DNA from: Candidatus Zixiibacteriota bacterium
Lineage (GTDB): Bacteria > Zixibacteria > MSB-5A5 > GN15 > FEB-12
Assembly: GCA_040753875.1 (NCBI GenBank)
Contig: JBFMDV010000004.1
Span: 1 to 40,057 of the forward strand
Reading direction: 5' to 3'
Length of the DNA stretch: 40,057 bases
Shown piece by piece: positions 11,847 to 19,221 of the stretch. The number at the start of each line of letters is the position of its first letter. Position 1 is the first letter of the stretch. Both the position numbers and the translations under genes were made by a program. A model generated the notes under the pieces. That model made no database searches. It was not told where the DNA came from and worked only from the letters and a program-made list of their open reading frames with translations.

Positions 11847-11919
11847 GCGGTCGGAGACTAAAAACTGGTTGAATGCAGGGAGGCGGAGAGGTTGATTGTA
11901 TAAGGATTCGGGATCACAC

Positions 11920-13227
11920 ATGACCTCACACTTCGTTCGCGTCATCATGGCCGCATTGATTGTCGTCGCGTGGTTGCCGACAATCGCGGCTTCAGCGCAG
12001 GTGCGGGCAAAAATACTCCAGCAGAAACTCGATCGACTGTATTTTGATATTGGCGAGGAGGCGCTGGTATTTGCGGGGAGTAGGTTTGTGATTTTCTGCG
12101 GTGATGATTCGGTGTGTGCGGGAGTAATAGAGAAATCGTACGAGGGGATTGCTGTCTCTACTGTTCTTGCTACGAACCACGATCACATTACTCACGACGC
12201 CTGTTACGGCCTTATCTTGGTTGCGGATGTCGACTCCAATGCGGTGATCCGAATCGGATGTAGCTGGGGTGCAGCTCAAGTCCGACCGCCAGTCGGTTGG
12301 TGGAAAGTCACCTACGACTCAGGATTCAACAAGACGTGGGACAATTATCACAACAACGCGGGCAGTGGCACGGTCGACGTCCGACAATACGAGGTGATTC
12401 ACTATCCCCTGAACTCTCATATGGAGAATGATTTCGCGGATGGCCGATTGGATGCGTATATGGCGTACCAATCGCCGCCGCAAAAATCGCCGAACCTGCA
12501 AGTTGACTCAACGGTGGCAACATCCATTGCCGCCCTCATTCCAAACGTTTACCGTGCGATCAACAAACAAGGACGGCTCACCACGGCGTTGTACCGTCGG
12601 TTCGACCCGACCGCACTTTCATCCTATTTCGATGGCCCTGCAGTCCCAGTGTACAGTTTTCTATCGCCCGAATCGGCGACTGTTCGATCTTACCCGTACG
12701 ATCCAGCTTCAACCAAGCGACTTCTGCGTGAGCAAGTGGGGCGCCCGCGGAAGGTGCGTCTGTGGTGCGCGGATGATCTTCGCCATCTCGCCGGATATTT
12801 TGCCGACGTTCTTGCACGCGAGCAACTCAAGACAGAAATCGTGACTGAAGAGTGGTCGAACTGTGATGCCTTCCTCACGTGGTTACCATGCGAAACAGGG
12901 AACAGTGCGTCCGCGCTGAAGCAATCACTTGGGATGAGCCTGGTCGATCAAGAAGGGGATTCAATAGTCTCAGAAAAGGGACGTCTGGCAGCCACCCGAC
13001 TTTCGCAGGCGTTCATCGAGCCGGATTCTCTGATTCGGCAGTCGATACTCGACTCTCTGGATCATGAGGTTATCGACGAGATAGGCTGTTTCCCGCTCTT
13101 CCGTCCCACGCTTCACCTCGTCGCACACAAAAATCTGACCGGCATTCGGTTCACGGACGACGGCAAGCTCGACCTGTCCTCATTACGAAAACTCAAACCG
13201 CCGGCGGAGCCAGAACCAAGGCAATGA
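11920..13227 (+). CDS. Exported protein resembling family-5 solute-binding proteins
   Basis: 435 residues from ATG 11920; the frame is open back to a TTG at 11896. A signal peptide covers about 1-26 (ends AASAQ). The C-terminal half shows a layout typical of SBP_bac_5 proteins: a Y-YDP..TKRLLREQ segment, a repeat-like domain, then DSLDHEVIDEIGCFPLFRP, VAHKNLTGIRFTDDGKLDLSSL, matching their closing IPL..P...VA...L.G....G. The N-terminal half is unusual, with four Cys residues. The gene overlaps the sensor kinase by four bases and no permease genes are near, so a role as ligand sensor for the kinase is more likely than transport. Family assignment is by pattern only. Confidence 0.55.
   Translation: MTSHFVRVIMAALIVVAWLPTIAASAQVRAKILQQKLDRLYFDIGEEALVFAGSRFVIFCGDDSVCAGVIEKSYEGIAVSTVLATNHDHITHDACYGLILVADVDSNAVIRIGCSWGAAQVRPPVGWWKVTYDSGFNKTWDNYHNNAGSGTVDVRQYEVIHYPLNSHMENDFADGRLDAYMAYQSPPQKSPNLQVDSTVATSIAALIPNVYRAINKQGRLTTALYRRFDPTALSSYFDGPAVPVYSFLSPESATVRSYPYDPASTKRLLREQVGRPRKVRLWCADDLRHLAGYFADVLAREQLKTEIVTEEWSNCDAFLTWLPCETGNSASALKQSLGMSLVDQEGDSIVSEKGRLAATRLSQAFIEPDSLIRQSILDSLDHEVIDEIGCFPLFRPTLHLVAHKNLTGIRFTDDGKLDLSSLRKLKPPAEPEPRQ

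Positions 13228-14866: not shown

Positions 14867-14867
<1 letters not shown>
13224..14867 (+). CDS. Sensor histidine kinase, NtrY-like
   Basis: 547 residues. The N-terminal membrane helix (about 8-27) is followed by a periplasmic sensing domain of about 220 residues, a second helix (about 247-267), a HAMP linker, and a HisKA domain with the phospho-acceptor His342 in IAHEVKNSLTP. The HATPase domain has the N box (NLVKNSLEAS), G1 (DDGPGFP) and G2 (GSGLGLAI). The form with EVKNSLTPI is typical of NtrY-like kinases that pair with NtrC-family regulators. The ATG overlaps the preceding TGA, and the regulator follows with an overlap of one base. Confidence 0.92.
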
Positions 14868-16186
<1,319 letters not shown>

Positions 16187-16213
16187 CGCTCAAGGCGAGA
16201 CCAGGAGTATTTG

Positions 16214-16561
16214 GTGGGCAAGATCGATTGGTTGTACTTCCGCGTGGGCTGAGCGACATGTGATCGAGCGCAGGGGGTCCTTGCGAAGCACAGGGTGGAC
16301 GTGGCCGACCGCACGAGCACGAGAGACAGGACATTTGACCGGAATGAAGCTCTCAGCCTGCTGGACGAGGTCGAAGTTCTGTACTCCGCCAAGGGTAAGC
16401 ATGTCACAAAGCTCCGCCTGAAGAAAGACAAACCGGACAAGGTCACGCTTGAGAAGTTGATCCTTGGTCCCACCGGCAAACTGCGGGCGCCAACCATTCG
16501 CATTGGCCGCACGTTGATGGTGGGGTATCACGAAGAGATGTACCTGAATCTGCTTGTGTAG
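16214..16561 (+). CDS. ArsC-family selenoprotein, Sec13 encoded by UGA
   Basis: 115 residues if the in-frame TGA at 16250-16252 is read as selenocysteine. GTG 16214 follows AGGAG by six bases. Translation gives MGKIDWLYFRVG-Sec-ATCDRAQG, so the redox centre is UxxC (Sec13, Cys16) just after a first beta strand, as in thioredoxin-fold ArsC/Spx-like proteins. Downstream the same frame reads LDLKKD-like text (LRLKKDKPD), LILGPTGKLRAPTIRIG and MVGYHEEMY, which is the C-terminal half of the ArsC-like fold with its cis-proline region. A hairpin at 16269-16285 lies right after the UGA (separate entry). A reading frame from GTG 16295 gives only an 88-residue C-terminal part that lacks the active site. 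It is expected to act as a cytoplasmic thiol-dependent oxidoreductase; its substrate is unknown. Confidence 0.85.
16269..16285 (+). promoter_or_regulatory. Candidate bacterial SECIS element
   Basis: CGCAGGG (16269-16275) pairs with CCTTGCG (16279-16285), seven pairs including one G-U, around a GGU apical loop at 16276-16278. The loop starts 24 bases past the UGA. A GGU loop on a short stem within roughly 15-40 bases of the UGA is the usual bacterial SECIS design recognised by SelB. Confidence 0.72.
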
Positions 16562-16628: not shown

Positions 16629-17243
16629 ATGGCCAAAGAACGAACATTCCCGCTCGAATTCGAATCACAGAAGCCAATCTATTTTCATCCGGCGGAGCCA
16701 ACGACATTTGATTTTGATATCCTCGAGATCGGTCCCGGACGCGGTGACCTGTTTTTGTGGTGTGCGACCAACTGGCCCGAGAAGCGACTTGTCGGAATCG
16801 AGTTGAGTGGCTTCCGGTGCAAAAAACTGGCCCGGCGAGTCGAGAAGCGCGGCTTGACGAATGTACTGCTTATCAAGGGGAACGCGCGTGTGGTACTGCC
16901 GCGATACTTTGACAGGCCGATGTTCGAATGTATCTATGTCCTGTTTCCCGACCCCTGGCCGAAAGAACGCCACGCCTTCCATCGTCTGCTCAGTGTCGAG
17001 TTTCTCCATATTCTTGGAGACAGATTGAAACCCGATGGCCAGATCGTGGTCGCCACGGACTGGCAGCCGTACGCCGATTGGGTGGTTGCGAATGTGGGCG
17101 ATATCCCGTCGCTTTGCAACGAGGGAACGCCATATGTCAGCGGCATGGGGTTACTTCCCAACAACGAACCGACACGGTTCGAACAGATGTGGCGCGATGA
17201 GGGGCGTGATATTTACTACCTGAGAATTCGGAAACAAGAATGA
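16629..17243 (+). CDS. trmB: tRNA (guanine-46-N7)-methyltransferase
   Basis: 204 residues from ATG 16629; a TTG at 16599 gives an implausible extension. The enzyme transfers methyl from S-adenosylmethionine to N7 of G46 in the tRNA variable loop. The SAM-binding motif LEIGPGRGDLF, the acidic GIELS strand end, the hallmark FPDPWPKERHAFHR and the late ATDWQPYADW motif are all present. It is short at the N-terminus, like compact TrmB forms. It starts 67 bases after the selenoprotein gene. Confidence 0.93.
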   Translation: MAKERTFPLEFESQKPIYFHPAEPTTFDFDILEIGPGRGDLFLWCATNWPEKRLVGIELSGFRCKKLARRVEKRGLTNVLLIKGNARVVLPRYFDRPMFECIYVLFPDPWPKERHAFHRLLSVEFLHILGDRLKPDGQIVVATDWQPYADWVVANVGDIPSLCNEGTPYVSGMGLLPNNEPTRFEQMWRDEGRDIYYLRIRKQE

Positions 17244-17265: not shown

Positions 17266-19221
17266 ATGGTGTCGGACAGCCGTTTAGAAAACAGACTGTT
17301 CCTGCGTATCTTCAGTGGAGCCGTCATACTCGTGGCGTTGCTGGCAGCCGGCTTCCTGCTCGTGGGACCCTCACTTATCAAGACGTATCACGAAGGGGGC
17401 TCATTCGGCATATTCCCGCCAGACCCGAATCCGGACAAAGGGACGCTTGAGGAGTACGGTCATAAAATTGGCGTGCGGTTCTGGAGTAATATTGTCGCCG
17501 GCATTCCGCTTTCGCTGCTGATTATCTTTCTGCTTTATAAAGTCTACAAGCAGCTCCTGGGATCGGTCAAACCGTGGACGAAGCCCGATTTCCTCTTGGG
17601 CCAAACTGATGTGACATTGGGCCCTGTCTGGGCTGTGACCATTTATGCGCTCCTCACGCTCGTCTATTTCTACCCCTCGTTGAAATCGATCTCGACGGCC
17701 ATGATCGGCCCGCCGGGAGACAACATGGCGTGCCTGTGGACCCTCGGATACGCAGGCAAACATCTTTTCGCGGACGGTATCAATTATGTCACCGATCTCT
17801 TTTACCCGGAAGGCAGTTCGTTCTACTTTCATGCCTGGTCGTTCTACAATCTCTTCCTTTTCAAAGCGCTCAGCGGCATTTTCGGTTCTGTCACATCCTA
17901 TAATCTCCTGATTCTTCATTCATTTCCGGTGGCCGGCGTTGCAGCTTTTCTTCTGATCCGGTATCTGACCGATAACAGTTGGATGGCGCTCCTTGGAGGA
18001 TTCCTGTTTGCATTCAATCCGGCCCATTTCGAGCGGGCACAGCATCATATGAATATCGCCACGATTCAGTTCCTGCCGCTCTTTGTGCTGTACTACATCA
18101 GGTCAGTACGAGAGCGTTCATGGCGACCACTCATTGCGGCTGCTGCCGCGCTGCTGCTAAACGCGCTGGCGGATTGGAACTACCTGCTGTTCGGTCTCTG
18201 GTTTATGCTTTTCGCCTACGTCTACCTCGCAATCCGTCGGCGCCGACTGTGGTTGTGGGACGTTGTTTGGAAATCCGGTTCCTTGATAGTCCTGACGCTC
18301 CTGGTGGTCTCTCCGTGGCTGATTCCGATGATCCGCCTGGCGGTGTCGGGTCCCGGCGTTGGCGCCGGAGGGCACAATCAATTCGTAGTCGACCTTCTGG
18401 GACTGGTAGCTCCTAATCCACACCATCTGCTCGGCGGCGTGCCTCTATTCGAGTATCTCAATAACACGTACACCGGCGTTCTAACGGAAAGTGTGGGCTA
18501 CCTTGGACTAGTCGCGCTGGCGCTGGTGCTGTTTGCAGGACGCAAGCTCCTTGTGAACACCGCCAAATACCTGCTGGGAGCAGTAACGTTCCTTCTCATG
18601 TCATTCGGGGCACAGCCGCATTTCGCCGGGTATGCGGCTCCGGTCCTGGTGCCTGGGCGTTTGGTTCCAATGTTGCCGCTGCTGTCGAACAGCCGTGCGC
18701 CCGGTCGCAATATCGTGTTCGTGTATCTGTTCTGGAGCATCATTGTCTCGATGGCGGTAGGTTATGTCTGGAGGTCGATCAAGAACGGTCGGATGAGGAC
18801 AACAATTGTCGTCGCGCTCGTTGCTCTACTGGCGGTCGACTATTTCAGCCTTAGCCGGGACGCGACTTCGGTACTGTTGCCCCCCTGCTATACAACTCTT
18901 CCGCGCGATGGGACACGGTACGGTCTGCTCGATCTGCCTGGCGGGTATGTGCAGACGGACAGGTACATGATGTATCAGGGACTGCACGGCATCCCTATTG
19001 TGCAGGGGTGGGTCTCCCGAAAGCCGAACCGCACCCTCATTGACACGCTCGACCTTGTCGATTTGGAGCATCAAAGAGAACAGCTTGTCTCAGCCGGGGT
19101 CCGCTACATAGTGGTGCACAAGATGTACCTTCCGGACTCGACCCTGAATGTCGATCTGTACCGTGCGACCTATCGCATCACCTATGAGGACAGTGCGAAT
19201 ATCGTGCTGCGCGTGGATTGA
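17266..19221 (+). CDS. Polytopic membrane protein, GT-C glycosyltransferase-like
   Basis: 651 residues with about 12 predicted membrane helices. The first two (about 12-32 and 75-95) flank a short loop rich in Pro and Gly. After that the segment GPPGDNMACLWTLGYAGKHLF, LFYPEGSSFYFHAWSFYNLFLFKAL and the later GGFLFAFNPAHFERAQHHMN follow the pattern of a family of integral-membrane sugar transferases with GT-C topology (D..L..W near the first outside loop, ...FSP.R...H.N). The soluble C-terminal domain (about 525-651) contains an LPRDGTRYGLLDLPGG region. A role in cell-envelope glycosylation is inferred. It follows trmB by 22 bases. Confidence 0.65.
   Translation: MVSDSRLENRLFLRIFSGAVILVALLAAGFLLVGPSLIKTYHEGGSFGIFPPDPNPDKGTLEEYGHKIGVRFWSNIVAGIPLSLLIIFLLYKVYKQLLGSVKPWTKPDFLLGQTDVTLGPVWAVTIYALLTLVYFYPSLKSISTAMIGPPGDNMACLWTLGYAGKHLFADGINYVTDLFYPEGSSFYFHAWSFYNLFLFKALSGIFGSVTSYNLLILHSFPVAGVAAFLLIRYLTDNSWMALLGGFLFAFNPAHFERAQHHMNIATIQFLPLFVLYYIRSVRERSWRPLIAAAAALLLNALADWNYLLFGLWFMLFAYVYLAIRRRRLWLWDVVWKSGSLIVLTLLVVSPWLIPMIRLAVSGPGVGAGGHNQFVVDLLGLVAPNPHHLLGGVPLFEYLNNTYTGVLTESVGYLGLVALALVLFAGRKLLVNTAKYLLGAVTFLLMSFGAQPHFAGYAAPVLVPGRLVPMLPLLSNSRAPGRNIVFVYLFWSIIVSMAVGYVWRSIKNGRMRTTIVVALVALLAVDYFSLSRDATSVLLPPCYTTLPRDGTRYGLLDLPGGYVQTDRYMMYQGLHGIPIVQGWVSRKPNRTLIDTLDLVDLEHQREQLVSAGVRYIVVHKMYLPDSTLNVDLYRATYRITYEDSANIVLRVD

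Follow-up and report, generated by a model that had tools for sequence, protein, structure and literature searches.

A UGA-containing gene of the ArsC/Spx-related family NF041106 in Candidatus Zixiibacteriota and the comparative evidence for its reading as a selenoprotein

Selenoproteins related to arsenate reductase have been described in several bacteria. A report of 2006 described ArsC-like selenoproteins from Deltaproteobacteria (PMC1794560), the table of a marine metagenome study of 2008 contains an entry "Arsenate reductase 2, UxxC" (PMC2398784), and a review of 2026 lists an "Arsenate reductase-like protein, UxxC", which it credits to the Global Ocean Sampling study of 2008 (PMC13188914). 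These sources agree with the first-pass annotation of the DNA analysed here, in which such proteins had been called known in other bacteria. NCBIfam already lists these proteins as a selenoprotein family (NF041106), so what is new here is its occurrence in this lineage. The window, i.e., the whole stretch of 40,057 nucleotides from a Candidatus Zixiibacteriota genome, contains a gene that shares with NF041106 the selenocysteine (Sec) near the N-terminus, the ArsC-like length and a full-length match above the cut-off, and that differs from the catalogued family in lineage only, while three of the relatives found here carry UxxS and not UxxC.

The gene and its family

The features of the locus referred to in the text are as follows.

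14867..16186, + strand: sigma-54-dependent response regulator (Response_reg, Sigma54_activat, HTH_8), upstream neighbour, TGA stop
16203..16207, + strand: Shine-Dalgarno sequence AGGAG, six bases 5' of the GTG at 16214
16214..16561, + strand: predicted ArsC-family selenoprotein of 115 amino acids, NF041106 (ArsC_rel_Se_1), GTG start, TAG stop at 16559-16561
16250..16252, + strand: UGA codon, putative selenocysteine, residue 13 and first position of U-x-x-C; TGA in 19/19 family genes covering the column
16259..16261, + strand: Cys16 (TGT), second position of UxxC by alignment; Ser in 3/19 family genes
16269..16285, + strand: candidate bacterial SECIS hairpin CGCAGGG-GGU-CCUUGCG, seven pairs (one G-U), GGU loop
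16295..16561, + strand: open reading frame of 88 amino acids from the ORF list, C-terminal part without the active site
16629..17243, + strand: TrmB-type tRNA (guanine-N7) methyltransferase (PF02390, 124 bits), downstream neighbour, TGA stop

The frame of the GTG stays open from the TGA to the TAG, and with the UGA taken as selenocysteine the product would be VGKIDWLYFRVGUATCDRAQGVLAKHRVDVADRTSTRDRTFDRNEALSLLDEVEVLYSAKGKHVTKLRLKKDKPDKVTLEKLILGPTGKLRAPTIRIGRTLMVGYHEEMYLNLLV. Sequences resembling AGGAG or GGAGG also precede the homologous ATG or GTG in many relatives. The positions given in the first-pass annotation for the ribosome-binding site, the TGA, the stop codon, the 88-residue ORF and the hairpin all agree with the sequence. 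A conventional gene finder would report just the 88-residue ORF and, as had been pointed out there, lose the active site by stopping at the TGA.

The product matches NF041106, "ArsC family (seleno)protein", with 125.3 bits against a cut-off of 85, residues 4-110 being aligned to positions 1-107 of the 107 profile positions. Weak matches were obtained with Pfam ArsC (20.4 bits, below the cut-off of 24) and with the Spx/MgsR family TIGR01617 (23 bits against a cut-off of 75), and the NCBIfam search gave no match up to E = 1 to the arsenate reductase family TIGR00014, an equivalog with a cut-off of 106 bits. When a profile of 16 members was compared with solved structures, Spx ranked first with an E-value of about 1e-10, followed more weakly by chains named as arsenate reductases, and in the Spx structures it was the first CxxC cysteine that aligned with Sec13. 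The residues Y8, R10, G12, U13, L23, G61, G85, G88, R91, A92, P93 and G98 are invariant in the family alignment. An ArsC/thioredoxin-like fold is predicted from the profile matches, which are in line with the "complete ArsC/Spx-type fold" proposed earlier, but the AlphaFold model built from three input sequences is poor (pLDDT 59.5) and found no Foldseek match at E <= 0.001.

With Spx (TIGR01617; 1z3e, 3gfk, 6ghb), the window protein shares an alignment over its length, the position of Sec and Cys16 on the CxxC, and the conserved LR-x-P segment; however, it is shorter, has RAP in place of the RRP of Spx and Sec in place of a Cys. With the glutaredoxin-coupled ArsC (TIGR00014) and its UxxS selenoprotein form it has the ArsC superfamily in common, whereas it carries Ala before the conserved Pro and most members of its family have UxxC.

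Conservation of the UGA codon and of the hairpin behind it

The survey covered 132 genomes of the same phylum, including that of the window, of which 18 scored above the cut-off of NF041106; genome contigs supplied another two relatives, one of them under the label Gemmatimonadetes. All counts of alignment columns refer to 19 genes including the window gene, as the remaining members end at contig edges or are partial. At the Sec column, every one of these genes has TGA and none has a Cys codon. The relatives sharing the UGA belong to many genera, a genome labelled Gemmatimonadetes among them, and show 39-52% protein identity. The first-pass annotation had made its reading depend on homologues with Cys or Sec at position 13, and all true family members would have Sec there. 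The second position of the motif is more variable, with UxxC in 16 genes and UxxS in three (G081, G121 and G122; loci L021, L031 and L030). The UxxC redox motif described earlier therefore holds for the window and the majority of the family; since three relatives carry UxxS, the alignment indicates that the second Cys is not obligatory.

In the ten codons 5' of the UGA, the pairwise differences are 0.29, 0.27 and 0.58 at codon positions 1, 2 and 3, as opposed to about 0.7 at each position farther upstream. Because this codon-position pattern is a coding one, the segment 5' of the UGA appears to be translated in the reading frame of the remaining gene. All relatives whose sequence extends to this point have kept the UGA and the region around it, which places the observation well beyond chance.

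For bacterial SECIS elements (bSECIS), the published rules comprise a loop of 3-9 nt with a G in the first two positions, a stem of 4-16 bp, a distance of 16-37 nt from the UGA and a minimum free energy of at most -7.5 kcal/mol (PMC13188914). The hairpin in the window, which starts 16 bases past the UGA, has a GGU loop of 3 nt, a stem of 7 bp, a distance of 23 nt between UGA and loop and a folding energy of -9.8 kcal/mol for the 26-nt stretch, so that the element described in the first-pass annotation agrees with these rules as well as in its coordinates. An Rfam search with the hairpin gave no match. Compared with dinucleotide shuffles, the 51-nt stretch folded alone gave only a modest signal (z -1.29), so a single sequence would not prove the hairpin, and it is the comparison across the family that does. 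In a fixed register of seven pairs, the number of genes that pair varies between 11 and 18 of 19 from one position to the next; the misfit of some relatives is due to the loop sliding by one base in some of them, which is why a test independent of the register was used, in which the folding energy of the 26 nt was compared with that of synonymous recodings generated at random according to the codon usage of the family itself.

Summed over the 19 genes, the folding energy was -148.8 kcal/mol compared with -58.9 +/- 8.6 kcal/mol for the recodings, and no recoding set fell below -79.5. This excess amounts to about ten standard deviations, a significance that is overstated as related genes are treated as independent. 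The z-values of individual genes ranged from -1.4 to -3.3, in the same direction in every gene, and seven control offsets within the same genes showed no excess stability, some being less stable than the recodings. Covariation of stem positions was seen, for example, at pair 20-34 (G-C, U-A, A-U, U-G and C-G, the U-A count including two genes that do pair in this register) and at stem pair 22-32 (A-U and G-C). In two of the UxxS members (G121 and G122) the hairpin is shorter and weaker, with -3.7 kcal/mol. At the level of nucleotide comparison, these results demonstrate that the hairpin after the UGA has been selected across the family.

At L065:1501-1800, L066, L068, L069 and L072 (G125, G127-G130), a second and separate ArsC/Spx-like group was noticed, whose genes likewise contain a UGA in frame (YGKFTUTSC...LLRRPIL). 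The two members scanned reached no NCBIfam cut-off, the scores for TIGR01617 being 69.5 and 73.7 bits where 75 are required, and in this group the hairpin after the UGA somewhat exceeds its recodings in stability (-38.2 compared with -23.5 +/- 5.5).

The genome that contains the window also encodes the machinery for selenocysteine, and all four genes that had been proposed for a search were found: a tRNA-Sec (selC, 64.3 bits; anticodon TCA according to ARAGORN), selB (310 bits) with the adjoining selA (502 bits), and selD (378 bits), which has an in-frame UGA of its own in the motif ACAGUASK (L043:1501-2427, - strand) and would thus be a Sec-containing SelD. Throughout the phylum, selB is above the cut-off in 113 of the 132 genomes. 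Both genes flanking the selenoprotein gene terminate at TGA, which indicates that UGA is an ordinary stop codon in this genome and that its recoding is local rather than a genome-wide reassignment.

These data bear directly on the other ways in which the TGA might be understood. It could be a real stop, caused by a pseudogene or by a sequencing or assembly error, with the 88-residue ORF alone or nothing being made; TGA is a stop in the standard code and the hairpin signal of the single sequence is weak, but the identical column in 18 other genomes and the frame conserved on either side of the codon make this explanation highly improbable. Conservation as such requires only that the UGA is read through, and either a general change of the code or a suppressor could accordingly insert Trp, Cys or Gly. 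As the flanking genes use TGA for termination, tRNA-Sec, selA, selB and selD are present and the hairpin is selected, the probability of this second explanation is close to nil. The window gene is almost certainly a genuine selenoprotein of the ArsC/Spx-related family NF041106, the UGA being read as Sec; the conserved codon, the machinery, the selected hairpin and the predicted read-through product are established by comparative evidence. The selenoprotein deduced from the raw sequence in the first-pass annotation was correct in substance, considering the NF041106 match, the conserved UGA, the sel genes and the hairpin.

Predicted function and gene neighbourhood

In the proposed mechanism, SelB carrying Sec-tRNA(Sec) would recognise the hairpin just past the UGA, and selenocysteine would be inserted at residue 13 in place of termination. 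The selenol would then lie in the loop that precedes helix 1 in the thioredoxin-like ArsC fold, at the site of the first CxxC Cys of Spx, where Sec13 could act as the redox nucleophile and Cys16 as the resolving residue in most members; UxxS members would have to rely on another thiol. Judging from these relationships, the product is probably a thiol-disulfide (selenol) oxidoreductase and neither an arsenate reductase nor a regulator that binds RNA polymerase.

The arsenate reductase of ArsC type has a substrate-binding Arg next to a conserved Pro. In the family described here this position is an invariant Ala (RAP), where Spx also has an Arg, and arsenate reduction becomes less likely as a consequence. 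A glutaredoxin-coupled arsenate reductase (TIGR00014) in which Sec replaces the catalytic Cys would be compatible with the ArsC superfamily, with the weak Pfam ArsC match and with the separate UxxS ArsC selenoprotein family listed in reviews, but given also the missing TIGR00014 match, the closer likeness to Spx structures than to chains named as arsenate reductases, and the lack of ars genes among the window neighbours scanned, this function is very doubtful. A role as an RNA polymerase-binding redox switch of the Spx kind is likewise improbable: the Spx identity of the closest solved structures and the position of the UxxC on the Spx CxxC favour it, whereas the score far under the TIGR01617 cut-off and the separate, longer Spx-like proteins in some of the same genomes speak against it. 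Beyond the oxidoreductase preferred here, it may tentatively be considered, as a rather unlikely extension, that the family is Sec-only in this phylum and has a respiratory or membrane redox role apart from arsenate reduction and Spx regulation.

No neighbourhood shared across the family genomes was found. In the window, a histidine kinase gene is located upstream of the selenoprotein gene beside that of the sigma-54 response regulator. The adjacency of trmB noted earlier does exist here, but trmB lies 3' of the family gene in just one other genome (G021), so it was rejected as a functional clue and is a local arrangement that says little on function. In three genomes (G081, G088 and G089; loci L080, L078 and L077), a gene that on visual inspection resembles one for a type II NADH dehydrogenase is positioned directly upstream and ends about 20-60 bases before the UGA, possibly reflecting a functional link to the family, and an ABC transporter cluster is found near the gene in two others (G065 and G068). 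The partners of the gene are not readable from its position. No relatives were found when viral contigs and plasmids were searched. Elsewhere in the window, two long ORFs at 11896-13227 and 17266-19221 (443 and 651 amino acids) have no Pfam match at E <= 0.001.

For the organism, the result means that a small ORF prone to mis-annotation is almost certainly a real selenoprotein, in a lineage in which most sampled genomes have selB. For the family, it supplies an alignment in which the Sec is conserved and the SECIS hairpin has been selected; the range of a known family is widened, and the general understanding of selenoproteins is unchanged.
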